Positions 10,369 to 57,496 of a stretch of DNA of 64,000 nucleotides are shown piece after piece. The position numbers and the translations under genes are program-made. A model generated the notes under the pieces. It saw nothing but the letters and a program-made list of their open reading frames with translations, ran no database searches and was not told the origin of the DNA. The DNA is taken from NCBI RefSeq assembly GCF_001879715.1, contig NZ_MNBW01000004.1, positions 186,001 to 250,000 of the forward strand, in the 5' to 3' direction. Every line of letters starts with the position of its first letter. Within the stretch, counting starts at the first letter, position 1. This DNA comes from Nioella nitratireducens. Lineage in GTDB: Bacteria > Pseudomonadota > Alphaproteobacteria > Rhodobacterales > Rhodobacteraceae.

Positions 10369-11442
10369 TCAAGCGCCCCGAAACCGCCCCTGCCGGTAGG
10401 GGGCCAACAGCCCGGCGAACCGATCCCCGCCCATGACGTCATCGGCCACCGCCTCTCCGGTCACGGCGGCGAGCGTGACGCCGGAATGCATCACCGCAAG
10501 GGTCAGCCCCTCGGGGCCGGCCGCCCCGATCACCGGCAGACCGTCCCCCGGCACCGGACGGTTTGCGACCAACACCTGTTGCCAGCGCAAATCCACGCCC
10601 GGCAGCAACGCACGGGCCGATGCCAACGCCTCTTCCGCCAGGGCCTCGGGCGCTTTCGCCAAAACCTCGCTGCTGTCGGATTGATGCGAAACCGATGTGG
10701 GCGCCAGAATACGTCCCTGCCCGTCTTGCCGCAATTCCCGCTCGGGCGTCACGACGATGCGGTCGAGAACCGGTGCAACCGGTTGGCTGACCATCAACGC
10801 GCCCGGCCGACGCAGCATCGGCAGGGGTGCGCCGAACGGCGCGACAAGGTCCGGGCTGCGATTGGCTGCAGCGACGATGATATGGTCGGCAGGGATATCG
10901 CCCCATTGCGTCCGTAGCCCCGTCACCCGGTCAGCCCGCGTGGTGATCGCCTCGGCCCGCACACCGTAAGACACCCGCGCGCCAAGGTCTTGAGCGCGCG
11001 ACAGCAAAGCGGCTGCAACGCGTGCGGCATCCGCCGCGCCCTCTGCGGGAAAGGCCAGCGCCTCTGTCGCGGTGCAGGCCACATGCGGCAGGCAGGCGCG
11101 GATCTGATCGCGTGTCAGCCGGGTCAGGCGATAGCCAAGCCCGACCAGATCGGCCTCTTGACGGGCCAGTGCATCGCCCTGCGCTTCCCACGTCACCGAT
11201 CCCGGCCAGCTCAGCCCGTCGAGCGCGCCCAAACGATGCCATGCGGCAATGCCTTCGGCGCGCAGGCGGAAGTGATCGGCGTCGTGATAGAAGCTCGCGT
11301 TGATCCAGCCAAAGGAACATCCGGTGGCCGCCGAGGCCGGGCCAGCGGCAGCCTCGACCACCTGCACCTCGGCCCCGGCCCCGGCCAGACGGTTGGCAAT
11401 TGCGGCGCCCAAAATGCCTGCCCCGATCACGATGGTTTTCAT
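10369..11442 (-). CDS. FAD-dependent amine/amino acid oxidoreductase (DAO family)
   Basis: The 357-residue protein starts MKTIVIGAGILGAAIANRLA, a Rossmann dinucleotide fold with GxGxxG, followed by the acidic end of strand 2 (VVEAA). The central TAWGDIPADHIIVAA-like strand and the C-terminal block GLPVIGAAGPEGLTLAVMHS-type motif are typical of the DAO family (D-amino acid dehydrogenase, glycine oxidase, sarcosine oxidase). Substrate is not determinable. GGAGGA lies 6 bases before the ATG. It is convergent with the desaturase and divergent from the cupin gene. Confidence 0.88.
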   Translation of the reverse strand: MKTIVIGAGILGAAIANRLAGAGAEVQVVEAAAGPASAATGCSFGWINASFYHDADHFRLRAEGIAAWHRLGALDGLSWPGSVTWEAQGDALARQEADLVGLGYRLTRLTRDQIRACLPHVACTATEALAFPAEGAADAARVAAALLSRAQDLGARVSYGVRAEAITTRADRVTGLRTQWGDIPADHIIVAAANRSPDLVAPFGAPLPMLRRPGALMVSQPVAPVLDRIVVTPERELRQDGQGRILAPTSVSHQSDSSEVLAKAPEALAEEALASARALLPGVDLRWQQVLVANRPVPGDGLPVIGAAGPEGLTLAVMHSGVTLAAVTGEAVADDVMGGDRFAGLLAPYRQGRFRGA

Positions 11443-45591: not shown

Positions 45592-46056
45592 TTAGCGCTG
45601 TGTCGCCAAAGCCTTGTTCTTGAAGCGTTTATCGGCGGTGACATCGGCCCCGAACCAGTCTGGCGGAGCGAAGGCATCGGCTGCGTCGAGCGACGGGAAC
45701 TCCACCTCGACCAACATCAGGGGCGCCAGCACACCGTCGAAAATGTCCAGCTCGAACACCCTGCCGTCCGCAAGGGCACCGACATAGCGGGTCTTCTCGA
45801 TCCGGCTGCCTGACGTCGCGGGCCACAGCGTCTGAAACTGGTCGGCCGTGATCGCGGTCTCATGCTCGGACCGCTCGATCGTGCCGCCGGACTTCACGGT
45901 CAGGAAATACCCGTCGCCTTTCTGGCGCAAGCGCACTTCAACGCTGTCGTCGGGGCCAGTGAGATAGCCTTGCCGCACCGCCTCGGCGCGCAGCCCGTCA
46001 AGCGCCGGGCAGCTCACAACGCGGAATTTCCGCTCGATCTCGGTCGGGTCGCTCAT
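45592..46056 (-). CDS. CYTH (triphosphate tunnel) domain protein
   Basis: The 154-residue protein has the complete CYTH signature EIERK (ExExK, residues 6-10) and basic tunnel strands: VEVRLRQKGDGYFLTVKSGG and GSRIEKTRYVG, with acidic DIFDG and EVEFPS. CYTH proteins bind or hydrolyse triphosphate groups in a beta-barrel (tripolyphosphatase, ThTPase, class IV adenylate cyclase). Size points to a tripolyphosphatase. Its start overlaps the ParA stop by 4 bases; it is last in the RHH-CHAD-ParA-CYTH operon. Confidence 0.92.
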   Translation of the reverse strand: MSDPTEIERKFRVVSCPALDGLRAEAVRQGYLTGPDDSVEVRLRQKGDGYFLTVKSGGTIERSEHETAITADQFQTLWPATSGSRIEKTRYVGALADGRVFELDIFDGVLAPLMLVEVEFPSLDAADAFAPPDWFGADVTADKRFKNKALATQR

Positions 46057-46808
46057 TTCGCGATCCTGTCCATGACCTCATCATGCAACGCCTGATAGGC
46101 TTGCGCCGCCGCGCTCTTGGGGGCCGTCGCCATGACCGGGGCGCGGTGCACCCCCATCCGCTCGATTTCCGAAGCGAAGGCGATCTGCGTCTTCATCAGC
46201 CGCTTCTTGTGGGCCTGTTTCATCGCGTCGATCGTCTCGCCATGCAGCGATTTCACACCCTGCACCATGGAAAAGAACCCATGCAGCTTTTTCAACGGCA
46301 GGTCATGACTGCGGAAGAACACTTCCAATTGTTCGAAGGTGCGCTGTGACAGGGTCGAGGGGATCACCGGCACCACGATCCCGTCGGCAGAGCGAAAGAC
46401 GTTCTCGGACAGGGTCGAGATGTTCGGCGGACAATCCAGCAAGACCACGTCATAATCACCCTTAACCCCCTTCAGCGCCTTTTTCAGGCGTGACCGGCTG
46501 TTGCGCATCCGGGCAAGAAAGACATCGAAGTCGCGGAAGGACATGTTCGCGGGCAGGATATCGAGATTGTCGTAATCACTGCCCCGAATAGCCTTGGTGA
46601 ACCGCTCGACGTCCTTGAAAAACTTTGCCTCCGTCAGCTTGCTGGACGGCTTTACCCGAAAGTAGAAGCTCGACGCGCCCTGCGGGTCCAGATCGCACAG
46701 CAGCGTCCGCTTGCCCGAGGCCGCCAGCGCATAGGCGAGGTTTACCGCCGTGGCCGTCTTGCCGACGCCGCCCTTGTTCGAATAGCAGGCTATGATCTTC
46801 ATGGTCAC
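46053..46808 (-). CDS. ParA/MinD-family ATPase
   Basis: The 251-residue protein has the deviant Walker A NKGGVGKTA (residues 11-19, with the signature Lys 12), LLCDLDPQGASS (switch) and YDVVLLDCPPNIS (Walker B). ParA ATPases bind DNA as ATP dimers and move plasmids, chromosomes, chemoreceptors or carboxysomes over the nucleoid. No ParB gene or parS-like repeat is nearby. It overlaps the CHAD gene upstream and the CYTH gene downstream by 4 bases each, so its cargo is probably connected to CHAD. A second Met two codons downstream could be the start. Confidence 0.93.
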   Translation of the reverse strand: MTMKIIACYSNKGGVGKTATAVNLAYALAASGKRTLLCDLDPQGASSFYFRVKPSSKLTEAKFFKDVERFTKAIRGSDYDNLDILPANMSFRDFDVFLARMRNSRSRLKKALKGVKGDYDVVLLDCPPNISTLSENVFRSADGIVVPVIPSTLSQRTFEQLEVFFRSHDLPLKKLHGFFSMVQGVKSLHGETIDAMKQAHKKRLMKTQIAFASEIERMGVHRAPVMATAPKSAAAQAYQALHDEVMDRIAK

Positions 46809-48328
46809 TCCTTGCCTCCGTGAAAGAGGTCGCGGAAGGTTTGCTGGGTCTCGGCGCTGTTGAAGCGGGCAAAGCTTTCGACCACCTTCCCGCGTTCCTC
46901 CAGCTGTCGCTGGTGCAGGACGGCGATCAAGGCGCCGACGCTCTGCGCGAGTTCGAGGTTCCCGTCATGGTCTGCGCGATCCAGCCCGGCCAGGAACGCC
47001 TGAAGGCTTTCCTGTTGCACCGAGTAGTCGTTGAACAGCCCGAGATTGTCTTGCAGGCGCTTGAGCGGCTTGATCAGGCTCTTGAAGGCGGATTTCGGAA
47101 ACACGGGGCCGAAAAATTCCATCAGGTAGCGCAGCTTCTTGCAGTGGATGCGAAGTTGGTGGACCTCTTCATCAGCGGTGTCAGCGTCGATCCCGGCCGC
47201 GATCTTGCAGATCTTGCGATAGCGTTTCCAGATCAGTTTACAGGCGAAGTCGTAGGCCGGCAGGTCGGCATTGGGACCGCGCTGCAACTTTTTCCGGCTG
47301 TCGAACAATTTGCCGAGCCTGTCCATATCCTTGTCATAGGCATTGCTGCGCAGGTGGCGCGACAGGGTCTTGAGTGCTTCCTGTCGTTCCTCGGCGAACA
47401 TGGCGAACATCCGGTCCAGCCCGCCATGCAGGCTGTCGGGCAGCAGGCCATAAAACGCGTTACGCTCCAGCAGGTAGACATCAAGGTCGCGCAACCGGCC
47501 CGTTGGGGCCATCAGGCCCGAGAACCGGGCTTTCAGATCCTGTGTCTGCGCCTTTGCATAGACACCTTTGAACAGGCTCAGCACAGAGCGGATCTTGCGC
47601 AGGGCAATGCGGTAGTCATGCAGAAACTCGGTGTCGATATCCTCGATAACACCCGCCTCGTTCTGTCGGGCCACCGGCAGATAGGCGGCGATGATATCGC
47701 TTGCGGCATCAAAGGCCGCTTCGTCGTGGCCAACGCCGATATCGGGCTTTGCGGCATAGGGTGCTAGGTTGGGAAAGAGCCGCCCGTAGAGATCATCATC
47801 ACTCAGCGGCACGCCCGTGCAGGCCGCCACCCGGCCGGTCAGTTTCGCCAACGCCTTGTCATAGCCGCGCAGCCCCTGCACCGCGACCACCGCGACGCTG
47901 GATGCCCCATCGGCGGACAACAGGCGCAGGCTCGCACGGGCCTGTGTCTTTTCCTCGTCATCCACCAGGGCAAGCTCTGACAGGCGCAACTGGCCGGTGC
48001 CGATCGCCATCAGGCTGCGCAGTTCAGGAAGGCTCGACAGGGCATGTTTGACCGGGCCGTCGGCCAGATCGGCGACGAAGGAGCAGCCCGTCCCGCCCGG
48101 TTGCGACAGGGTGGTGCCATCCGCTTGCCACAGCTCTAGCCGGTCGTCGATTTCGATCAGCACACGACGCTCTTTGCGCAGGCTCTGGTTGAAGGTGTCA
48201 TAAAGGGTAAAGCCAGCGGTTTCCTCCGCCTGCGTCAGGACGGGTGTCAGCCTGCCCACCGGACTGGCCGACAGCTGGTCGACCGCCTCGACGGGCAGCA
48301 GGAAACACGCATCGTCGTGTCGGGTCAT
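46805..48328 (-). CDS. CHAD domain protein
   Basis: The 507-residue protein has a C-terminal CHAD region (about 200-490). It is all helical and carries the conserved basic/His motifs LHDYRIALRKIRSVLSLFKG (about 235) and EEVHQLRIHCKKLRYLMEFF (about 390). CHAD domains bind polyphosphate and localise to polyphosphate granules, and often accompany CYTH. The N-terminal 190 residues (CFLLPVEAVDQLSAS; ERRVLIEIDDRLELWQADG) look CYTH-like in strand pattern but lack ExExK. The gene starts 4 bases after the RHH stop and overlaps ParA. Confidence 0.93.
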   Translation of the reverse strand: MTRHDDACFLLPVEAVDQLSASPVGRLTPVLTQAEETAGFTLYDTFNQSLRKERRVLIEIDDRLELWQADGTTLSQPGGTGCSFVADLADGPVKHALSSLPELRSLMAIGTGQLRLSELALVDDEEKTQARASLRLLSADGASSVAVVAVQGLRGYDKALAKLTGRVAACTGVPLSDDDLYGRLFPNLAPYAAKPDIGVGHDEAAFDAASDIIAAYLPVARQNEAGVIEDIDTEFLHDYRIALRKIRSVLSLFKGVYAKAQTQDLKARFSGLMAPTGRLRDLDVYLLERNAFYGLLPDSLHGGLDRMFAMFAEERQEALKTLSRHLRSNAYDKDMDRLGKLFDSRKKLQRGPNADLPAYDFACKLIWKRYRKICKIAAGIDADTADEEVHQLRIHCKKLRYLMEFFGPVFPKSAFKSLIKPLKRLQDNLGLFNDYSVQQESLQAFLAGLDRADHDGNLELAQSVGALIAVLHQRQLEERGKVVESFARFNSAETQQTFRDLFHGGKE

Positions 48329-48332
48329 TCAG

Positions 48333-48521
48333 TTACTTTCCGGGTTGGTCGAGAAAATTCTCAACGAGGGTCTCGATGATCTTCTGGACGCTCGTCTCGT
48401 CTTCGATTGCACGAAGCTTGAGGGCCTTGAGGGTCTTGCTGCTCAGCCGGAGCGAGGTGTTTTTCTTCTTGTCACTCTTGTCGCCAGCGGGTTTGTCCGT
48501 GCTTTTCTTGGATTTCGGCAT
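48333..48521 (-). CDS. Ribbon-helix-helix DNA-binding protein
   Basis: The 62-residue protein has a Lys-rich, disordered N-terminus (MPKSKKSTDKPAGDKSDKKK) and a ribbon-helix-helix body: NTSLRLSSKTLKALKLRAIE, then TSVQKIIETLVENFL. RHH proteins bind DNA as dimers. It is first in the operon. It could repress the operon, or be the DNA- or ParA-contacting partner of the CHAD cargo. Small basic-tailed proteins are common activators of ParA ATPases; that role is inferred. Confidence 0.8.
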   Translation of the reverse strand: MPKSKKSTDKPAGDKSDKKKNTSLRLSSKTLKALKLRAIEDETSVQKIIETLVENFLDQPGK

Positions 48522-48712
48522 TCATGGCCTCATGACTTAATGACGTCATTTTTTCACGCGGTGCGCCGGAATTCAACCCAAAAAACCCTTCGCTGCTGGC
48601 CTGACCTAAAGATATGCGGCTTTTTTCCTTGCCTCACTTATCACTCTGGCACAAAATTTTGCCTGGGTCTAAGAGCTGCATCCGCTGTCACATTGCCGTT
48701 GAGAGGTTTCCT

Positions 48713-48910
48713 ATGGACCGTTGCCTGTTTGTCGCTGAAACCGAGACCATTGATGCAGTCATTCATGTCTGGGTGCGGAAGGGAACGCGCCATCCCCGTC
48801 CGGTTAAGCCCGCCGATGTGACCGATGATGCGCTGCAAACAGCCGAATTTCACGGCGCGCCGAAAGATGCGATCCTGACTTGGCTGAAGCGGCTTACCGC
48901 TACGCCCTGA
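48713..48910 (+). CDS. Short protein of unknown function
   Basis: The 65-residue product from the ATG at 48713 follows GAGAGG by 5 bases. It is mixed alpha/beta (MDRCLFVAETETIDAVIHVW) with a C-terminal amphipathic helix (PKDAILTWLKRL). I recognise no family. It is the only plus-strand gene between two minus-strand units. A longer form from 48614 is possible but starts in a region without a ribosome site. Confidence 0.5.
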   Translation: MDRCLFVAETETIDAVIHVWVRKGTRHPRPVKPADVTDDALQTAEFHGAPKDAILTWLKRLTATP

Positions 48911-48916
48911 CCGGCC

Positions 48917-49843
48917 TCAGCCCCCTCTGAACCCTGCGACAATCCGGGCCAGATCCGGATGTGCCACGCGTGCGGCGGCCTTGTGGGGTGAGACCCATTC
49001 GCGCTGGCGGTGGCTTTCGTCCCATTGGCTGTCGGACAACACCTTGGTCACGTCCATCGGATAGACCGCCACCGTGCAGATTGCCCCCCATTTGGCATGA
49101 TCATACTGCCCAAGGCGGACCGCACCGATCCGCCCCATGACCCCGGCCTCTTCCAAGGCCTCCTTGGCGGCGGAGTCCTGCGGGGAAAGGCCGGGTTCGC
49201 AGATGCCCTTGGGGATGCCCCATTTCCGTCCGCTGCTGGTGGTGACCAGCAGCACCTGCACCGCGCCCTTGTGTCGGCGATAGGGCAAGGCGGCGGATTG
49301 GGTGTAGTAATAGGCCGGACGAGGGCGGCGTTCCGGCCAACCGGGGCCGGGAAATGGGAAGCTGTCGGGCAGATCGTTCGCCGCAACCAGCCGCTTCACC
49401 CTGCCCGTTCCCTTTCCAAGCGCGCCGCCGCGCAAACGCACATGGGCCAGCGAGCCGGGGCGCATGGCCGGTGCATCGGGTGCAAGGTGGCGCAACAGGT
49501 CGGTCAGCGTGTCGGGATGGCCTGAACACAACATTGCCGGCGCGGCCCGGTCGGACAGGGCCGAGACCTGATCGACCACGGAAGCCCGATAAAGCCTCTG
49601 GTCGGTCACGATGCTCCGCGCGGTCCCACCCCCGGCCTTCAGGGCCTTCTCTACACTAACAAGGGCGCGTTCCGCAGGCGAGGCAACGGCGATGTCTGGC
49701 GCATGCCCCTGCTCTTGCAGCCACGCCCCGAGTTTCTGCGCCTGTCGCTTGGAGCGCGATTTCAACGCGCGCGCCATGTCGCCTGCGCCATCGTCGGCTT
49801 TCGCGTCGCCGTGACAGAGCAATAGCAGATCTCGAACGGACAT
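48917..49843 (-). CDS. SixA-like histidine phosphatase / Nudix hydrolase fusion
   Basis: The 308-residue protein joins an N-terminal SixA-like domain (LLLLCHGDAK; VASPAERALVSVEKAL; SGHPDTLTDLLRHL) to a C-terminal Nudix domain with KWGIPKGICEPGLSPQDSAA and KEALEEAGV. The phosphatase RHG motif is CHG: the catalytic Arg is Cys. The Nudix box keeps its EALEE metal ligands but has Leu for the first Glu and Lys for Arg. GGGAGG lies before the ATG at 49843. It is 29 bases downstream of the CofD-like gene. MutT1 of mycobacteria has the reverse domain order. Confidence 0.88.
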   Translation of the reverse strand: MSVRDLLLLCHGDAKADDGAGDMARALKSRSKRQAQKLGAWLQEQGHAPDIAVASPAERALVSVEKALKAGGGTARSIVTDQRLYRASVVDQVSALSDRAAPAMLCSGHPDTLTDLLRHLAPDAPAMRPGSLAHVRLRGGALGKGTGRVKRLVAANDLPDSFPFPGPGWPERRPRPAYYYTQSAALPYRRHKGAVQVLLVTTSSGRKWGIPKGICEPGLSPQDSAAKEALEEAGVMGRIGAVRLGQYDHAKWGAICTVAVYPMDVTKVLSDSQWDESHRQREWVSPHKAAARVAHPDLARIVAGFRGG

Positions 49844-49872
49844 GAATATTCCTCCCTCGGACCGGGGGGCGA

Positions 49873-51060
49873 TCATGCCATTGACAGCAGGGCTTCACAA
49901 ACCTTTTCAGGATCGTATCGCAGGGGATCGTTCGCCTTTCGCAGCGGCAATGGCACCAGCGGCAGGCCAAACCGGGTCGTCAGCCGCACGGCGTCCTGCC
50001 CGTTGAATGCGTCATTGTCACACAGAACGGCGGTCATCAGATCCGAAACCGGGGTCTCCGCGCCCGCATCGGTCCGCAGGGCAGACAAGAGCGCGTCCAC
50101 CTGATCGGTGAGGGTCATGCCATGGCATTCCGGATCGGCGCCAAGGCTGGGCAGGTAGATTTTCGGAACCGTGCGTTGCGCCACCGACCGGCCAACATGT
50201 TTCGGCAACAGGTTCGCAATCACGCTGGAAAACAGGCTGCCCGGCGGATAGCAGATCAGATCGGCCTGCCCGATCAGCTTGCGGTTGCGCTTGGGCAGGG
50301 GCACGTCCTCGCCCGACAGGCGCACGCCCCGGTCGAGCAGGAAGAAGTCACGGATCGTAGAGGCGATCGGCGACGCGTCCTTGCCGGTCAAAAGGCGTTG
50401 CGTCGAAACCTCGGTGCCATCGTGCAAAACGGCCCCTATATCGAGGTTGCGATCCACGATCGCCCGCACCGTTCCTTGAACCGCCACCATCTTGGACATC
50501 AAAAACAAGACCGGCTCCAATGCGCGGTCATTGGCGAGGTAGCCGCCCGCGAGGATCAGGTTGCCGACACTGGCCCCGGCAAAGTTGAACTCCGCCGGAC
50601 ACTTGGCGGCAAAAACCTTGAGTTGCGACAGGATCAGGCTGCGCATCGGCTGCGAGATGGCCTTCATCAACCGGTGGCGGCCGTCCATCAGGGTGGCAAA
50701 TTCCTCGGCCAGATCTGCCCGCGTCGCGTTCTTGGGAAAGCGGTAGGAAAACAGACGAAAGATATCGGGCTGGCCCAGAACCGATTCATCGGCCAGCGCC
50801 ATGAGGCGGCTGCGCAGGTCGCCCACGGCGGGCATCTCGAAAGCCTCGCGCAGCACTTGCGAACTGCCGCCGCTGTCAAACGGCGTGATCAGGTGGATCG
50901 AGTTGTGGGTATAGAGTTTCAGCACCCGTGCGATTTCGTTCAGCGCACTGCCACCCGAGAAAAACAACAGGCGCGGCCCCAGATTGGGCAAGCTGCGCGC
51001 CCGCGCGACCCGCAAGGTGTCGGGAAATTCCGCGTTGCGGGTAATCTGAAGGTCTGACAT
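49873..51060 (-). CDS. CofD/YvcK-like protein of the GAK system
   Basis: The 395-residue protein has LLFFSGGSALNEIARVLKLY (about 31-50), then TPFDSGGSSQVLRE and PAVGDLRSRLMAL, matching the CofD/YvcK nucleotide- or sugar-nucleotide-binding core. Later GASVGNLILAGGYL and YPPGSLFSSVIANLLP are also family blocks. CofD makes the F420 precursor; YvcK-type proteins bind UDP-sugars. No F420 genes are in view, and the context fits the variant annotated as 'GAK system CofD-like'. The ATG at 51060 follows AGGAGAG; it is divergent from the Nudix-kinase operon across 62 bases. Confidence 0.9.
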   Translation of the reverse strand: MSDLQITRNAEFPDTLRVARARSLPNLGPRLLFFSGGSALNEIARVLKLYTHNSIHLITPFDSGGSSQVLREAFEMPAVGDLRSRLMALADESVLGQPDIFRLFSYRFPKNATRADLAEEFATLMDGRHRLMKAISQPMRSLILSQLKVFAAKCPAEFNFAGASVGNLILAGGYLANDRALEPVLFLMSKMVAVQGTVRAIVDRNLDIGAVLHDGTEVSTQRLLTGKDASPIASTIRDFFLLDRGVRLSGEDVPLPKRNRKLIGQADLICYPPGSLFSSVIANLLPKHVGRSVAQRTVPKIYLPSLGADPECHGMTLTDQVDALLSALRTDAGAETPVSDLMTAVLCDNDAFNGQDAVRLTTRFGLPLVPLPLRKANDPLRYDPEKVCEALLSMA

Positions 51061-51122
51061 TCTGCGTCTCTCCTGAATATCCCGCAGCGATACAAAACTG
51101 TCTGAAACCTCCTTTAACACCC

Positions 51123-51578
51123 ATGGATACAACGTCGAATGGCTTTCTTGCGGACATCCGCCCCTGTGCGCGGGCGCTGATCCTGCGGAAACAGGAGGTA
51201 TTGGTGCAGGTAAAATCGAAACCGGGGCGCGGTGATTACCTGTCGCTGCCAGGTGGCAAACAAGAGCCGGGCGAGACCCTGACCGATTGCGTGATCCGCG
51301 AATGCCGGGAAGAGATCGGCGTGACCGTGGACGTCGACCGCCTGATTCACGTTGCCGAAACCTTTCGTGACAAGCCCGGCGGCCTGCGGCACCAGCTGGA
51401 TGTGCTTTTCGCCTGCACGGTTCCGGCGGGCTACACCCCACGGCTTGGCCCCCATCCCGACCCCTCGCAGATCGCAACGGCATGGGTGCCGTTGCAGGAC
51501 GCCATCCCCCGCCTGTCCCCGGCGTTCGGCCCGGCCCTGACCGGGGACGCGGTCTATCTGGGGCTGTGCAATGGCTAA
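51123..51578 (+). CDS. Nudix hydrolase
   Basis: The 151-residue protein has a perfect Nudix box GX5EX7REUXEEXGU at residues 45-67 (GGKQEPGETLTDCVIRE, then CREEIGV). It hydrolyses a nucleoside diphosphate linked to another moiety, or another phosphoanhydride; the substrate is not visible. It is first in the rightward unit of seven genes and overlaps the next gene by 8 bases. The ribosome site is weak. Confidence 0.93.
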   Translation: MDTTSNGFLADIRPCARALILRKQEVLVQVKSKPGRGDYLSLPGGKQEPGETLTDCVIRECREEIGVTVDVDRLIHVAETFRDKPGGLRHQLDVLFACTVPAGYTPRLGPHPDPSQIATAWVPLQDAIPRLSPAFGPALTGDAVYLGLCNG

Positions 51579-53202
51579 ACTTCCGCGCGCTGTTGGTGAG
51601 AACCTGCATTTTCTCTGCGCTGAACTCGACGGGCAATTGTCCAACCTCGAAGCCTATTTCGAAGCGCCCGACCCGACCACCGCACAAAAGGTGATCCAGC
51701 GTGCGGGGTATTCCTACAACCTGTGGTCACGGGTCCAGAGCGCGGCCCTGCGAGGGCTGTCCTCGAAAAAGCCCACCCGCGAGACGCAAGTGCAGTTGCA
51801 CAACGCGGCGCTCGTGGCGCGCAATCTCGATCTGATTGCCCGCATGGCGCGGCGCAGTCTTGAACATGCCGAGGATGTCGATCGCAAGGCCCTGTTGCGG
51901 CCCGAAGCCTACCCCAAGGTCATCAAGCGCGTGCGCAAACGGATCAAGGCGATCCTGCCCGCGATGGAGGCCCGCGACAGCGACACGGCGGTGAAGATCG
52001 GACACGCCAAGGCCGATCTCGATACGCTCTACGATCAGCTCTTTCGCACCTACACCCAGGACATGCGCAAATCGAAACACACCGAGGATCTGGCCAAGTC
52101 GCTGCTTGCGGCAAACGAGGTGCATCGCATGGGCGATGCGCTGCAAGGCATCAGCGAGGCAATCCTGTCCGCCAGCATCGGCCAGTCGGTGCATTTCGAT
52201 CGCTATTTTTCATTGCGGAACGTGTTGGCAACGGGCGCGGCCGACGATCTGGAACTGGAGCCGCTGGCCGAAACCCGCTCGGGCAGCACGATCTCGGGCC
52301 TTCGCAGCAAGGACGGGCCCAGTGACGGATTCGACGCGGTGTTCAAGGACGGCGAGGCCGGGAAAGTGCGCGAGGAACGGGCGGGCGTAAAACGGTGGGA
52401 TTCCATCTATCCCGGTCTTGCCCCCAAGATCTTGTCCTACCAGAGGAACGGGGATTCGGCCGCGTTGCTGATCGAGTATCTGCATGGCCAGACGTTCGAG
52501 CAGGTCTTGCTGGGGGAAAGCGATGCGATGCTTGCGCAGGCCGAGACGGCGCTGGCCAAGACCCTCAGGGATGTCTGGAAACGCACCCGCACCGACGAAC
52601 CCGCTGACATGGCCTCGATGAAACAGCTCTTGAAACGGCTGCCCGATGTCTACCGCGTGCACCCGGACTTCGATGCCGTCCACTCTCGTATCAATGGGCT
52701 GGAGCTATGCGGGTTCGAAACCCTCGTGCAGCGCGCCGCCGCACGGGAAAAGGCGCTGATCGCGCCGTTCTCGGTGCATATCCATGGGGATTTCAACCTC
52801 GACAACGTGATCTTCGATGCAAGCGAAAGCAAGATCCACTTCATCGACCTGCACCGATCACGCTTCATGGACTACGTGCAGGACGTGTCGGTCTTCATGG
52901 TCTCGAACTACCGGCTGCAAGTGCATGACGCCGAGACGCGGCGGCGGGTCGTGCAGGTGGCTTCGGGTGTGCACGCGATGGCCCTGAAATTCGCCCGCGC
53001 ACAGGGGGACAAGAGCTTTGAATACCGGCTGGCGCTCGGGCTGGCGCGCAGTTTCGCCAGCTCGACCCGTTTTGTCTTCGACAAATCCCATGCCCGGCGC
53101 ATGATGGTGCGCGCCCGCTTCCTGCTGGAGGCCGCCCTGACCTGTCCGCCGGGCAAGGAAAACCGGCTGAAACTGCCGATCAAGGAGCTGTTTCGTGACT
53201 GA
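51571..53202 (+). CDS. PhoU-like / APH-like kinase fusion protein
   Basis: The 543-residue protein has a helical N-terminal half (about 1-215) resembling PhoU: LDTLYDQLFRTYTQDMRKS, then AANEVHRMGDALQGISEAIL. The C-terminal half has the phosphotransferase core FSVHIHGDFNLDNVIFD (HxDxxxxN, about 403-419) and IHFIDLHRSRFMDYVQDVS. APH-type kinases phosphorylate small molecules or proteins; PhoU is linked to phosphate sensing and persistence. The combination is unusual. It overlaps genes on both sides and sits between Nudix and ATP-grasp in the GAK unit. Confidence 0.85.
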   Translation: MAKLPRAVGENLHFLCAELDGQLSNLEAYFEAPDPTTAQKVIQRAGYSYNLWSRVQSAALRGLSSKKPTRETQVQLHNAALVARNLDLIARMARRSLEHAEDVDRKALLRPEAYPKVIKRVRKRIKAILPAMEARDSDTAVKIGHAKADLDTLYDQLFRTYTQDMRKSKHTEDLAKSLLAANEVHRMGDALQGISEAILSASIGQSVHFDRYFSLRNVLATGAADDLELEPLAETRSGSTISGLRSKDGPSDGFDAVFKDGEAGKVREERAGVKRWDSIYPGLAPKILSYQRNGDSAALLIEYLHGQTFEQVLLGESDAMLAQAETALAKTLRDVWKRTRTDEPADMASMKQLLKRLPDVYRVHPDFDAVHSRINGLELCGFETLVQRAAAREKALIAPFSVHIHGDFNLDNVIFDASESKIHFIDLHRSRFMDYVQDVSVFMVSNYRLQVHDAETRRRVVQVASGVHAMALKFARAQGDKSFEYRLALGLARSFASSTRFVFDKSHARRMMVRARFLLEAALTCPPGKENRLKLPIKELFRD

Positions 53203-54076
53203 ACTGAAAATCGGGGTGATCGGCATCCCGGGAAAATGGTCGACCGAGGCGCTCGCCGACGCGGTCGAGGCGCGCACCGGCTTTCGCCGCGTGATCGACA
53301 TGGGGGCCGTAGCGCTGGACCTGGACACCGGCGCGCTGATGCATGCGGGTGAGGATCTGTGCAGCTTCGATGCGCTGATCGTCAAGAAAATCTCCGAGGT
53401 CTACAGCCCCCATGTGCTCGACCGGCTTGAATTGCTGCGCGTGGCCGAGGCACGCGGGGTGCGTGTCTACTCGCGGCCCGAGGCGATCCTGCGGCTCATC
53501 GACCGGCTGGCCTGCACCGTGTCGCTCCGGCTCGCGGATATCCCGATGCCCCGGACCCTTGTTACCGAGGATCTGGCCGAAGCCGAGGCAGCGGTCGCAA
53601 TCTATGGCAGCGCGGTGTTCAAGCCGCTCTACTCGACCAAGGCGCGCGGCATGTGCCTGATCGACACAGGCCCCGAAGCCGCGGCGCAGATCGCTGGCTT
53701 CGCCGCGGACAACCCGGTCATGTACATCCAGGAAAAGCGCGACCTATCCGGGCAGGATCTGGGCATGGTGTTCCTGAACGGGAGCTATCTTTGCACCTAT
53801 GCGCGTGTTTCAGCCTCGGACACATGGAACACGACCATTCATAGCGGCGGCAAATACGCCGCCTATCAGCCCGACGCCGACCTGATCGACTTGGCCCGCC
53901 GGGCACAGGCCCCCTTTGGCCTGACCTTCACCACCGTCGACGTGGCGCTGACCGAACAAGGCCCCATCGTCTTCGAAGTGTCGGCCTTTGGCGGCTATCG
54001 CGGCGCGCAAGAGGGGTGCGGCCTGGATGCGGCGGCACTGGTTGCCGAACACGTGATCGCCGGGGCCACGCCATGA
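53195..54076 (+). CDS. ATP-grasp enzyme of the GAK system (RimK-like)
   Basis: The 293-residue protein has RimK-like ATP-grasp features: DALIVKKISEVYSPHVLDRL, then AVFKPLYSTKARGMCLIDTG (ATP-binding loop and Lys), VMYIQEKRDLSGQDLGMVFL and the metal-binding end PIVFEVSAFGGYRGAQEGCG. ATP-grasp enzymes ligate a carboxylate to an amine or thiol through an acylphosphate. It starts with GTG, 7 bases after AAGGAG, and overlaps the HPr-kinase-related gene (ATGA). The substrate is unknown. Confidence 0.9.
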   Translation: MTELKIGVIGIPGKWSTEALADAVEARTGFRRVIDMGAVALDLDTGALMHAGEDLCSFDALIVKKISEVYSPHVLDRLELLRVAEARGVRVYSRPEAILRLIDRLACTVSLRLADIPMPRTLVTEDLAEAEAAVAIYGSAVFKPLYSTKARGMCLIDTGPEAAAQIAGFAADNPVMYIQEKRDLSGQDLGMVFLNGSYLCTYARVSASDTWNTTIHSGGKYAAYQPDADLIDLARRAQAPFGLTFTTVDVALTEQGPIVFEVSAFGGYRGAQEGCGLDAAALVAEHVIAGATP

Positions 54077-55167
54077 CCCTGACAAGCGTTGCCGATGTGC
54101 TGGCGCGTCTCGACCGCTCGTGCCTTGCCGATACCGACCCCCTGGTCCTGTCGGTCGGGCCAATCCGGCTGCGCCTGCGCTGCGCCGGACCCTTGCGTGG
54201 CGACCTGTCCACCTATTTCGCCGATGTGCTGGCGGCGGATGGGCCGGAGGCAATTGACATCGACATACTGGAGGGGCAAGCGCTCGACCCCGCGCCGGAC
54301 TGGGTGGATTGGGCGCGCGAGCCCGGCAAGACCGGGCGCAAGGATGCCATCCACGATCTGGCCGACGGACGGCTGGTCTTCAAACGGCGCACGGGCGTTA
54401 CCTTTCTGCAATCCCGCACGGCCTTGGTGGCGTTCGGACCTGTCAGGGAAAATGCGAACCAGGTGATCAATTTCGTCAACACCCAGGTGCTGAATGCCTG
54501 CCTGCGGGGGGGCTGGCAAATCTGCCACGCGGCGGCCGTCACCAACGGCACGCGAACCTTGGCAATTGCCGGCCTGTCGGGCGGGGGAAAATCCACCTCG
54601 GTCTTGCGGATGATGGACCTGCCCGGCACGGCCTTCGTCACCAATGACCGGTTGATGGTGCGCGGTGGCGCGCCGGTCCCAAGCGCCCTTGGCATCCCCA
54701 AGCACCCCCGGATCAACCCCGGCACCATCCTGCACAACCCGCGCCTGCACGCGATGCTGCCGCCCGACCGGCTGGCGGCGCTGGCCGAGATGGCGCCCGC
54801 GGACCTGTGGCATCTGGAGGAAAAGCACGACCTGATCCTGCCTGATGTCTATGGTCAGAACCGGTTGCAACTGGCCGCCCCGCTGACCGATTTCTGGGTT
54901 TTGAACTGGCGGCAGGATACGGCGCGGCCCACGACCGTGCATGATGTGACCCTGTCTGACCGCCCTGATCTGCTTGGCGCAATCATGAAAAGCGCGGGCC
55001 CCTTCTACGCGGATGCCCATGACCGGTTCCAAACGGATCGCACGCCGCTCGATCCTGCCGCGTATTTGTCTGCGCTGCGCCATGTCCGGGTGCGCGAAGT
55101 GACCGGGCAGGTCGATTTCGACGCCCTCTTCGCGGAGGGCCGCCGCGTGTTGGGCGTCAGCGCATGA
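54073..55167 (+). CDS. HPr kinase-related protein (HprK-related kinase B type)
   Basis: The 364-residue protein has an HprK-like P-loop LAIAGLSGGGKSTSVLRMMD (about 163-182) following a His-rich strand (WQICHAAAVTNG). A downstream FVTNDRLMVRGG takes the place of the second Asp motif. True HPr kinase phosphorylates a Ser of HPr with ATP or pyrophosphate and can reverse it with phosphate. This is the 'K' partner in GAK annotation. It overlaps genes on both sides by 4 bases. Confidence 0.88.
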   Translation: MTLTSVADVLARLDRSCLADTDPLVLSVGPIRLRLRCAGPLRGDLSTYFADVLAADGPEAIDIDILEGQALDPAPDWVDWAREPGKTGRKDAIHDLADGRLVFKRRTGVTFLQSRTALVAFGPVRENANQVINFVNTQVLNACLRGGWQICHAAAVTNGTRTLAIAGLSGGGKSTSVLRMMDLPGTAFVTNDRLMVRGGAPVPSALGIPKHPRINPGTILHNPRLHAMLPPDRLAALAEMAPADLWHLEEKHDLILPDVYGQNRLQLAAPLTDFWVLNWRQDTARPTTVHDVTLSDRPDLLGAIMKSAGPFYADAHDRFQTDRTPLDPAAYLSALRHVRVREVTGQVDFDALFAEGRRVLGVSA

Positions 55168-55862
55168 CCCCGCGCTTCATCGCCCTCATTCGCCACGGCG
55201 CCTATAATCAGCGCCCCGATACGCCAAGCGCGCTGCAACCCTTCCCCCTGACGGACACGGGCCATGCCCAGGCCCGGGCCTGCGGAGAGGACATCGCCCA
55301 GCTTCTGGACGAGACCGGCTGGCGGCTTGATCCGGTGGCGCATTCCTCGCTGCAATTGCGCGCATGGCAGACCGCGCGGGGCGTGGCCGACGTTCTGGCG
55401 CCCCTTGGGCATCTCCTACAGATCGAACAAACCGACGATCTCTCGGAACGGGGGCTTGGCAGTGCCGCCAACCTGACCTTGCAGGAAATCGAGGATGTTC
55501 TGTGCGCTGACCCCCGCTTTGACGCGCCGCCGCCGGGATGGAAGGCCGACCGCGACTATCGACTGCCCTTGCACGGGGCCGAGTCGATGCGCATGGCGGG
55601 CGCGCGGGTGGCGGGCTGGTTGCGCCGGGCGGTGGCGCAGGAAACCGCAGCCCCTACCGCGACGCTGACCCTTGTCTTTGGCCATGGCGCAGCCTTCCGC
55701 CACGCGGCACACGACCTTGGCGTCCTGAGCCTCGACGAGATTTCACAATTCAGCATGTATCACGCACGACCGTTACTATTGTGTTACAAAGGCAATGATA
55801 CATGGCTCCATTGCGGCGGGGCCTGGAAGCAGCGCCCCCGTCCGGAAACCGCACTGGACTGA
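55164..55862 (+). CDS. Histidine phosphatase family protein
   Basis: The 232-residue protein has the intact RHG motif FIALIRHGAYN (Arg10-His11-Gly12), the second Arg in HSSLQLRAWQTARGV, acidic DDLSERGLG and the second His in LVFGHGAAFRHAAH. It removes phosphate through a phosphohistidine. Its intact active site contrasts with the SixA-like half of the leftward fusion. The ATG overlaps the preceding stop; 12 bases separate it from the metallophosphoesterase. Confidence 0.93.
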   Translation: MTPRFIALIRHGAYNQRPDTPSALQPFPLTDTGHAQARACGEDIAQLLDETGWRLDPVAHSSLQLRAWQTARGVADVLAPLGHLLQIEQTDDLSERGLGSAANLTLQEIEDVLCADPRFDAPPPGWKADRDYRLPLHGAESMRMAGARVAGWLRRAVAQETAAPTATLTLVFGHGAAFRHAAHDLGVLSLDEISQFSMYHARPLLLCYKGNDTWLHCGGAWKQRPRPETALD

Positions 55863-55874
55863 GGATCGTCTGAC

Positions 55875-57233
55875 TTGGCTGACCAAGACGCGATGTGGCA
55901 AGGGCCTGCCACGCTGCTGCCGCCCGTTTTCGATGCCTATTGCGATTTCGACGGGCTGCCCCGGCAATGCGCCGCATGGCCAGTTTCCGAGCCGCATTCC
56001 GGTGGCGGAACGCAGGCCTGCCTGCGCGACGTGCAACACAGCCTCAAGATCGCAGCCGCCCATGGCCGCTGGCATTGGCCGGAGCACCCGGTTGTCTTCA
56101 TTTCAGATCCCCACGCCGATGCCGAGGGCTTCCTGAGATCGCTGGCGGCGGCCGGAACAATTCAGCGCAATGGCCATGGTCCGCGCGACTTCGTCCTGAC
56201 CGGCTTTGGCCAGAGCGCGCGCATCGTGCTGGGCGGAGATTGCCTCGACAAGGGGCCAAGCAACCTCGACATGCTGGATGCCCTGGACGCGCTGTTTTCA
56301 AGCGGTGCAAACGTGCACCTGCTGGCTGGAAATCACGATTTGCGTTTCATGCTGGCAGTGCAGGCCCTGACCGGGCCGCGCAGCCCGCTGACCGAACACC
56401 TGTTCGTGCGTATGGGGCGCAAGACCGTTCCCCTGCTGCGCGAGGTCTGGGACAGGTTCCCGACCGCCGATCTGATGGCGAACCTGCCTGATGAGGCGAT
56501 CTGCCGGGCCCGCATCTTCCCCGGCCCCGACTGGGACACGCAGTTTCCAGATTTGGCCGCCGCCCATTTGTCGCGCAAGGCCATCGACAAGGAACTGGCC
56601 CGCCTGCGAACCAAGCAAGACCAGTTCGATGCCCAGATCACCAAGGCGGGTATGACCATGCGCATGGTCTATGCGTCGGCGCTGATGTGCAGGTCTTTGT
56701 TCCTTGCCCCGGACGGGCCCTATGCGTGGTTCTACGAGCGTATGGACATGATCCAGAAAAGCGGATCGCTTTTGTTCGTTCATGCCGGGCTCGACGACGC
56801 GATGTGCGCGCTTTTGGCCGAGGGTGGTCCCGATGCCGTCAATGCCCGCTTCCGCGCCGAGGCGCGGCAAGATCCCTTCGCCTTCTACTTTGGTCCGGTG
56901 GCCAATCTTGTCCGCACCAAGTATCGTGAGACGGACAAGCACCTGTCGGAGACGGGGGTGCAAAGGCTTCATGCACAGGGGATCAAGATGGTGGTTCAGG
57001 GACATGTGAACAATCATCGCGGTCAACGACTTCTGGCCAAACGCGGGCTCTTGCATCTGGAGGGCGACGTGACCCTCGACCGCGCCTCGCGCCATCTGGA
57101 GGGGCTGCCGGGAATCGGCGCCGGGGCCACGCTGATCCATCCTTCGGGCGATATCGTCGGCCTCAGCGCGGACTTCCCCGCCGCCAAGCATTTCCACCCG
57201 GAGCGCCTGTCTTGGGACGGGGTGGTCGCATGA
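55875..57233 (+). CDS. PPP/calcineurin-like metallophosphoesterase
   Basis: The 452-residue protein has the five metal-binding blocks: VFISDPHADAEGF (about 74-86), IVLGGDCLDKGPSNLD (about 117), LLAGNHDLRFML (about 150), LLFVHAGLDD (about 300) and MVVQGHVNNHRGQR (about 371). GDxxDxG with GNHD is closest to PPP-type Ser/Thr phosphatases. A helical insert (AIDKELARLRTKQDQFDAQI, about 235) separates the halves. The TTG start follows GAGGA by 9 bases; ATG at 55893 is an alternative. The stop overlaps the amphi-Trp gene. Confidence 0.9.
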   Translation: MADQDAMWQGPATLLPPVFDAYCDFDGLPRQCAAWPVSEPHSGGGTQACLRDVQHSLKIAAAHGRWHWPEHPVVFISDPHADAEGFLRSLAAAGTIQRNGHGPRDFVLTGFGQSARIVLGGDCLDKGPSNLDMLDALDALFSSGANVHLLAGNHDLRFMLAVQALTGPRSPLTEHLFVRMGRKTVPLLREVWDRFPTADLMANLPDEAICRARIFPGPDWDTQFPDLAAAHLSRKAIDKELARLRTKQDQFDAQITKAGMTMRMVYASALMCRSLFLAPDGPYAWFYERMDMIQKSGSLLFVHAGLDDAMCALLAEGGPDAVNARFRAEARQDPFAFYFGPVANLVRTKYRETDKHLSETGVQRLHAQGIKMVVQGHVNNHRGQRLLAKRGLLHLEGDVTLDRASRHLEGLPGIGAGATLIHPSGDIVGLSADFPAAKHFHPERLSWDGVVA

Positions 57234-57496
57234 GCCAGCCCGACGGAAAATTCCGCCACGAATCCTTGCAAGACCGCAAGACCATCAAGGCGTTGCTGAC
57301 CGCGCTGACCAAGGGCATCGGCGCAGGAGAAATCACTTTCGGCGAGGACGACAAGACCTTGGTTCTGCCGGTGGACGGCCTGATGACCCTGCGCATCAAG
57401 GCCGACCGCTCGGACGGCGCATGCCGGGTCGATCTGCGGATTTCGTGGACCGAAGACAACGACACCACAAGCACGAGTGCACCGCAGATCAAGTAG
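57230..57496 (+). CDS. Amphi-Trp domain protein
   Basis: The 88-residue protein begins KFRHESLQDRKTIKALLTAL and then has KGIGAGEITFGEDDKTLVLP, GLMTLRIKADRSD and the ending LRISW. This is the amphi-Trp pattern: a helix followed by amphipathic strands with a terminal Trp. The family is known mainly through its link to GAK clusters and also occurs in archaea; its function is not known to me. It ends the rightward unit, 87 bases before the response regulator. Confidence 0.85.
   Translation: MSQPDGKFRHESLQDRKTIKALLTALTKGIGAGEITFGEDDKTLVLPVDGLMTLRIKADRSDGACRVDLRISWTEDNDTTSTSAPQIK

Follow-up and report, generated by a model that had tools for sequence, protein, structure and literature searches.

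According to a 2025 review, AlgP is the single protein named as positioning polyphosphate (polyP) granules, the use of energy in polyP positioning is still to be seen, and the proteins involved in Caulobacter are unidentified (PMC13052382). The same review describes the helix-hairpin-helix protein PhaH and AlgP as DNA-binding proteins that tether polyhydroxybutyrate and polyP granules, respectively, to the nucleoid; AlgP bears a histone H1-like tail (PMC9239181). Moreover, a folD-ppk1-parA-CHAD cluster has been reported in Acidithiobacillus, where ppk1-parA-CHAD is conserved and the authors read parA as a plasmid partition gene (PMC10892726); this report constitutes an independent prior notice of the parA-CHAD pair. 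Here, we compare these systems with an island of 14 genes located at positions 45592-57496 of a 64,000-nucleotide stretch of DNA from the marine bacterium Nioella nitratireducens (contig NZ_MNBW01000004.1, positions 186,001 to 250,000; the window). The island consists of two self-standing modules, namely module A, which comprises ribbon-helix-helix (RHH), CHAD, ParA and CYTH genes together with a small orphan gene, and module B, the GAK system. We consider it fairly probable that these adjoining phosphate modules are functionally coupled, A being a polyP-granule handling cassette and B working in the same phosphate/polyP economy. Module A itself most likely represents a cassette for ParA-driven handling of polyP granules, ParA being the component that we infer to position them.

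Gene content and layout

All 14 genes listed in an earlier note on this DNA are present with the coordinates first given there, and NCBIfam and Pfam searches confirmed the domain families of most of them:

45592..46056, minus strand: CYTH/TTM protein, NeuTTM-like, predicted inorganic tripolyphosphatase (Pfam CYTH; 2fbl/3typ match)
46053..46808, minus strand: ParA-type ATPase without N-terminal helix-turn-helix, GTG start or ATG at 46802 (Pfam AAA_31)
46805..48328, minus strand: CHAD protein, N-terminal TTM-like barrel without ExExK motif, then CHAD at about residues 212-443 (Pfam CHAD)
48333..48521, minus strand: 62-residue RHH protein with Lys-rich N-terminal tail (RHH_1, E = 0.003)
48540..48549, no strand: predicted RHH operator ATGACGTCAT, upstream of the RHH start codon by 19-28 bases
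48713..48910, plus strand: orphan small gene, 65 residues (tblastn conservation beside the CHAD-ParA cassette)
48917..49876, minus strand: SixA-like and Nudix fusion, ATG at 49876 or 49843 (RHG motif is CHG in the window)
49873..51060, minus strand: GAK system CofD-like protein, YvcK/CofD fold (TIGR04357, 470 bits)
51123..51578, plus strand: Nudix hydrolase, Nudix box intact (Pfam NUDIX, 64.6 bits)
51571..53202, plus strand: PhoU-like and APH-type kinase fusion (Pfam PhoU and APH)
53195..54076, plus strand: GAK system ATP-grasp ligase, RimK/MptN-like (TIGR04356, 448 bits)
54073..55167, plus strand: HprK-related kinase B, P-loop GLSGGGKST (TIGR04355, 313 bits)
55164..55862, plus strand: histidine phosphatase, RHG intact (Pfam His_Phos_1, 70 bits)
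55875..57233, plus strand: calcineurin-like metallophosphoesterase, weak ApaH-like match
57230..57496, plus strand: amphi-Trp protein (TIGR04354, 61 bits)

The family matches of the island proteins, among which Pfam finds two Nudix and two histidine-phosphatase domains, support the phosphate theme that the note had proposed. The minus strand carries RHH-CHAD-ParA-CYTH and, beyond the plus-strand orphan, CofD-SixA/Nudix. Nudix-PhoU/APH-ATP-grasp-HprK-histidine phosphatase-metallophosphoesterase-amphi-Trp then follow on the plus strand, this last unit beginning 62 bases from the CofD start. Better start codons were found for CofD (ATG 51060), HprK (ATG 54073) and amphi-Trp (ATG 57230). The tight overlaps described within the sub-operons are four-base overlaps (ATGA or GTGA) at five junctions, CHAD-ParA, ParA-CYTH, ATP-grasp-HprK, HprK-histidine phosphatase and metallophosphoesterase-amphi-Trp. 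The orphan has tblastn matches beside the CHAD-ParA cassette in the loci L137 (56%), L070 and, twice, L077, with weaker ones in L171 and L172 on Paracoccus plasmids. Because it recurs beside this cassette in other genomes, we regard it as a real gene, and since it lies on the plus strand, the island contains four transcription units rather than the three counted before. A scan for consensus promoters and terminators gave a yield no higher than that of shuffled sequence. In other genomes, each module is likewise kept together as a unit, which takes the grouping of the genes beyond chance.

The CHAD-ParA cassette

The CHAD protein matches its Pfam family with 203 bits. In its structural model (predicted local distance difference test score, pLDDT, 90), the C-terminal part has as its best PDB match the polyP-bound CHAD protein of C. 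tepidum, 6qva (root-mean-square deviation 1.7, TM 0.95 on the target), and the N-terminal part resembles TTM/thiamine-triphosphatase folds. The polyP ligands mutated in the study of the C. tepidum protein, His253, Arg256, Arg260 and Arg296 (PMC6537752), have their counterparts in H237, R240, R244 and R280 of the window protein. Across 22 proteins the three Arg ligands are invariant, and the His is kept in >90%. Both features by which we tested for membership in the polyP-binding CHAD family, the fold and the basic ligands, are present.

The ParA protein (Pfam AAA_31, 138 bits) carries the deviant Walker A motif of the ParA/MinD family, KGGxxK[T/S], as KGGVGKT. Among solved structures its relatives are ParA/Soj proteins, with McdA lower in the list. 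It is 60-83% identical to the ParA of 18 other genomes of the family, plus one at 44%, and close relatives (E<=1e-50) occur in 20/346 family genomes, the window's genome included. CHAD precedes ParA in 18 of the 19 family loci fetched (the window's own counted), the pair being frequently preceded by RHH and followed by CYTH, and three of these loci contain a SixA-like or SixA/Nudix gene. Paracoccus plasmids show the order hypothetical-CHAD-ParA-CYTH-Nudix, and in the genomes G322 and G475 the cassette is chromosomal (contigs of ~4.1 Mb). CHAD is the constant partner of ParA; the RHH gene was not found in many cassettes. The cassettes thus do not consistently keep a dedicated centromere-binding partner beside parA, as ParABS and ParFG systems do, and neither an McdB partner nor microcompartment genes were present among the island proteins or the identified enriched neighbours, which sets the cassette apart from McdAB.

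The CYTH protein matches N. europaea NE1496 (NeuTTM, 2fbl/3typ) over its full length (E=5e-55), and its ExExK motif reads EIERK, as in NeuTTM-type TTM tripolyphosphatases; NeuTTM is a specific tripolyphosphatase (PPPase) (PMC3440374). The Pfam RHH_1 match of the 62-residue protein is weak (E=0.003, just under the cut-off); conservation of the gene extends to about ten loci, and its orthologues carry the same basic, Lys-rich N-terminal tail. This protein is a predicted autorepressor, and a role as ParA/nucleoid partner is possible.

Upstream of the RHH gene, a 9-bp core, ATGACGTCA, is identical in 10/10 RHH-bearing cassettes, ~20-40 bases before the start codon. In eight of the ten loci it takes the form of a 10-base palindrome, ATGACGTCAT, at 48540-48549 in the window and at 11891 in L069, 2762 in L070, 4313 in L074, 1924 in L083, 6988 in L119, 5276 in L137 and 5260 in L171; in L070 it lengthens to the 24-base palindrome TGATGTAATGACGTCATTACATCA. 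A search directly in front of cassettes that lack RHH did not find the core. The only copy of the palindrome in the G329 genome is the one at the RHH gene; the other genomes searched contain 4 to 15 copies. A second ATGACGTCAT in the window, at 10433 within an oxidoreductase-like reading frame, was set aside. We read the palindrome as a putative RHH autorepressor site and predicted operator.

Linkage with the GAK module

Module B belongs to the GAK system: CofD_rel_GAK, grasp_GAK and HprK_rel_B are clustered, with amphi-Trp in the same cluster, and exceed the curated NCBIfam cut-offs (470/340, 448/300 and 313/200 bits, and 61/31 bits for amphi-Trp). NCBIfam names these families and gives no function, and our search of the full-text literature found no paper on them. 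CofD_GAK occurs in 23/346 family genomes, yet in 1/289 class-wide genomes, the window's own, and the GAK ATP-grasp gene accompanies it in 12 of the 23. Around the solitary CofD_GAK of the eleven genomes without ATP-grasp, no recurring neighbour was found among the flanking genes, and the idea of a shared operon for these genes was dropped. CofD_GAK without other GAK genes or common context was seen in L027, L028, L029, L032, L035, L037, L038 and L040, and likewise in L043, L044, L046 and L047; in G295/L032, the GAK ATP-grasp gene is on a different contig. Plasmids of Qingshengfaniella, Pseudooceanicola and Tritonibacter carry the module without CHAD, ParA or CYTH.

Among solved structures at E<=0.001, CofD_GAK matches YvcK/UPF0052-type chains only, among them YvcK-type 2ppv/2hzb (E ~1e-19), and it also falls below the YvcK family cut-off; CofD 2-phospho-L-lactate transferase proper is not its nearest relative among these structures. 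The RimK-like ATP-grasp protein has EVSAFGG at the position where a solved relative has EVNSSPG, so that the usual E-x-N metal motif is absent, and its second-best family after GAK is MptN (122 bits). The SixA motif, CHG in the window, is degraded in several alphaproteobacterial relatives and intact (RHG) in Gammaproteobacteria, where the SixA/Nudix gene sits within the GAK operon. The CHG-bearing SixA half of this Nudix fusion may no longer be an active phosphatase. At the position of the separate Nudix hydrolase gene (51123-51578), 44 GAK loci have a family of this size. PDB searches with the amphi-Trp protein (modelled as one helix and four strands, pLDDT 82) returned no match at E<=0.001 and no relative of its fold. 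For the GAK half, the evidence reaches phosphate chemistry and no further.

The linkage of the two modules was examined in 345 family genomes besides the window's, about one per genus. CHAD-type ParA occurs in 9/22 CofD_GAK genomes against 1.2 expected (Fisher p = 1.9e-7, to be taken as indicative), namely in 5/11 with GAK ATP-grasp and 4/11 without. The photosynthesis gene pufM, present in 144/346 genomes, served as the control for generic co-occurrence of accessory genes. It is depleted among CofD_GAK genomes (2 observed vs 9.2 expected), and within pufM-negative genomes the CofD-ParA excess persists (8 vs 1.4 expected, indicative p = 4.7e-6). Among the 31 genomes carrying one or both modules, to which this count is confined, polyphosphate kinase PPK1 is found in 22 and PPK2 in 30. 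In G580:C45, G425:C58, G327:C5, G293:C15, G332:C13 and G624:C30, PPK2 lies on the same contig as CofD_GAK or ParA, at raw distances of 14-45 kb.

The two modules also adjoin each other in other lineages. Of the nearest 80 GAK loci recovered by ATP-grasp alignment, eight have CHAD within 10 kb, seven of them with ParA too: L117, L119 (= G290/L042), L134 (CHAD only), L137 and the gammaproteobacterial L138, L139, L142 and L166. In L228, CHAD-ParA is embedded in the GAK operon, with which it shares its strand (SixA/Nudix-histidine phosphatase-metallophosphoesterase-AAA-RloB-CHAD-ParA-amphi-Trp), in L251 it heads the operon, again on the same strand (CHAD-ParA-PhoU/APH-ATP-grasp-HprK-SixA/Nudix-histidine phosphatase), and in G375 a CYTH-ParA-CHAD cassette is 9 kb from a solitary CofD. 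On the ATP-grasp tree, on which 69 loci were scored for CHAD adjacency, the adjacency requires 7 changes, and well-supported branches make 5 of these unavoidable. CHAD-linked ParAs require 4 changes on the ParA tree, with GAK-linked members in three of the groups. Common descent of a single island would not yield such different orders; functional coupling, in contrast, predicts a repeated combination of this kind.

The arrangements in L228 and L251 came from a further scan that started from ParA and covered 398 genomes of the phylum. Most ParAs of the phylum with ~45-50% identity to the gammaproteobacterial ParA stand beside RnfH, tRNA pseudouridine synthase, alanyl-tRNA synthetase and comparable genes, and CHAD-linked clades alone were therefore counted. 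The ParA of a Halomonas megaplasmid (L169/L173), which has no CHAD beside it, was rejected as well.

In the gammaproteobacterial loci L138, L139, L142 and L166, CofD is accompanied by CHAD, ParA, PstS, a protein that joins a helix-hairpin-helix domain to a long Lys-rich tail and, where the contig extends, a PhoU-domain protein; a CNNM/CorC transporter gene separates CHAD from CofD. Genes for proteins of the helix-hairpin-helix and Lys-rich type lie close to ParA, whether or not CHAD is present, in L205 (8660-8839, minus strand), L138 (1834-2196) and L252 (5908-6375), that of L205 being near CHAD-ParA. Their architecture resembles that of nucleoid tethers of storage granules such as PhaH and AlgP (PMC13052382).

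The AAA_21 and RloB-like genes between metallophosphoesterase and CHAD in L228 (3105-4796) look like a defence-type insertion. The titles of L119 (Enemella evansiae TN21-6) and L142 (Halobacteria archaeon MAG) misfit their GAK genes, which group with Rhodobacterales and Gammaproteobacteria, respectively; both records are probably mislabelled or contaminated.

Competing explanations and comparison with known systems

Several observations weigh against our preferred reading of two coupled modules. In 59/69 scored GAK loci no CHAD is present within ~10 kb, and the window's nearest GAK relatives with full flanks, L089 and L090, are without CHAD-ParA. In addition, 11/23 CofD_GAK genomes are without the GAK ATP-grasp, no PPK gene lies within the operons examined, the window and several relatives have a degraded SixA active site, and a sample of roughly one genome per genus does not equal a set of independent lineages, which makes the p values indicative. 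Most CHAD-ParA cassettes in the family loci fetched also have no GAK alongside. The earlier note had proposed one system; in view of these counts, the modules are two units repeatedly combined rather than one system. One might go further and regard them as chance neighbours, that is, as unrelated accessory cassettes that landed together via plasmids and islands, since both occur on plasmids, mostly apart, and the flanking genes vary among loci. We nevertheless consider this rather improbable: CofD_GAK and ParA co-occur in 9 genomes vs 1.2 expected (indicatively, p = 2e-7), whereas the accessory gene pufM is depleted, in L228 and L251 CHAD-ParA belongs to the GAK operon and shares its strand, and the arrangements of adjacency vary in several lineages. 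The note would have regarded its link between the halves as refuted if they rarely co-occurred; this is not the case, and the link is supported.

Module B might instead be biosynthetic, yielding an F420-like cofactor (a phosphodiester or a glutamylated one), and be tied to polyP through shared phosphate regulation alone. The CofD fold and the MptN match of the ATP-grasp protein are consistent with such a pathway, but YvcK and not CofD is nearest to CofD_GAK among solved structures, the ATP-grasp protein is without E-x-N, and no other F420-type gene recurs among the identified enriched neighbours, so that we hold it to be unlikely, albeit a serious contender. As to module A, the combination of RHH and a small ParA resembles ParF/ParG, and ParA could be a DNA-partition ATPase for plasmid or island stability with CHAD as a passenger, a view to which the conserved palindrome upstream of RHH and the cassettes located on plasmids lend themselves. 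However, CHAD is the partner that ParA has kept, RHH was not found in many cassettes, chromosomal cassettes exist, and the core stands as a single copy at the RHH promoter, the sole copy in the G329 genome, unlike a centromere array; partition is accordingly quite improbable. Even less can be said for an anti-phage defence island, to which patchy distribution and plasmid carriage would point: PADLOC, applied to ten proteins, returned nothing but a generic P-loop match in ParA, and the chances of this explanation appear very slim.

Under our preferred reading of two coupled phosphate modules, CHAD would coat and grip polyP, and the nucleoid-bound ParA ATPase would move or space the granule via the usual ParA cycle, its ATP hydrolysis being triggered by a putative partner, either CHAD or the RHH protein with its Lys-rich tail. 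The RHH protein would repress its own operon at ATGACGTCAT, and CYTH would remove tripolyphosphate left over from polyP breakdown. The GAK kinases, ligase and phosphohydrolases would most likely load phosphate onto, or unload it from, a granule-linked carrier or metabolite, and might act on polyP directly. The notion of a ParA-positioned polyP cargo, put forward in the earlier note, serves as a good hypothesis for the CHAD half. A bolder version, in which GAK and CHAD-ParA form a dedicated polyP-organelle system that combines ATP-driven ParA positioning with enzymes exchanging granule phosphate via a carrier or conjugate, is offered tentatively and seems to us somewhat doubtful.

Full-text literature, a body that leaves preprints and most subscription papers outside, yielded no proposal of ParA-driven polyP positioning. 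As a conserved unit that encodes a basic DNA-binding protein, a polyP-binding protein and a ParA ATPase, this operon is a candidate ATP-driven polyP positioning machine, and if this holds true, polyP joins the cargos of the ParA family. The linked gene sets make the question of polyP granule positioning directly testable. Module B, a named and uncharacterised gene set, gains its first functional lead, as it accompanies polyP-binding, phosphate-uptake and PhoU genes.

Compared with known systems, the island is a combination of both modules. Module B has the CofD-like, ATP-grasp, HprK-related B and amphi-Trp proteins of the GAK system (NCBIfam TIGR04354-TIGR04357) above their cut-offs and differs from it in adjoining a CHAD-ParA-CYTH cassette. 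The CYTH protein is likened to NeuTTM (2fbl/3typ; PMC3440374) by its full-length match, a comparison of proteins and not of gene contexts. With the CHAD 'phosins' and C. tepidum CHAD (PMC6537752), the window protein has the fold and the polyP ligands in common; unlike them, its gene is accompanied by genes for a dedicated ParA ATPase and for a small, basic protein that binds DNA. The Acidithiobacillus cluster likewise places parA next to CHAD but includes ppk1, and the available part of that article names no GAK genes (PMC10892726). AlgP of P. aeruginosa (PMC9239181) and PhaH of Caulobacter (PMC13052382), too, are Lys-rich or helix-hairpin-helix DNA-binding proteins tied to a granule, but they act without a known ATPase, whereas here the RHH or helix-hairpin-helix version is encoded with ParA. 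As in McdAB and other ParA/MinD cargo systems, a small ParA ATPase is encoded with a cargo-binding protein; in the window this protein is CHAD, for polyP, and not McdB, and polyP is not named among the ParA cargos in the available parts of the two sources (PMC10241942, PMC13052382). Module A is thus probably a new cargo variant of ParA positioning.

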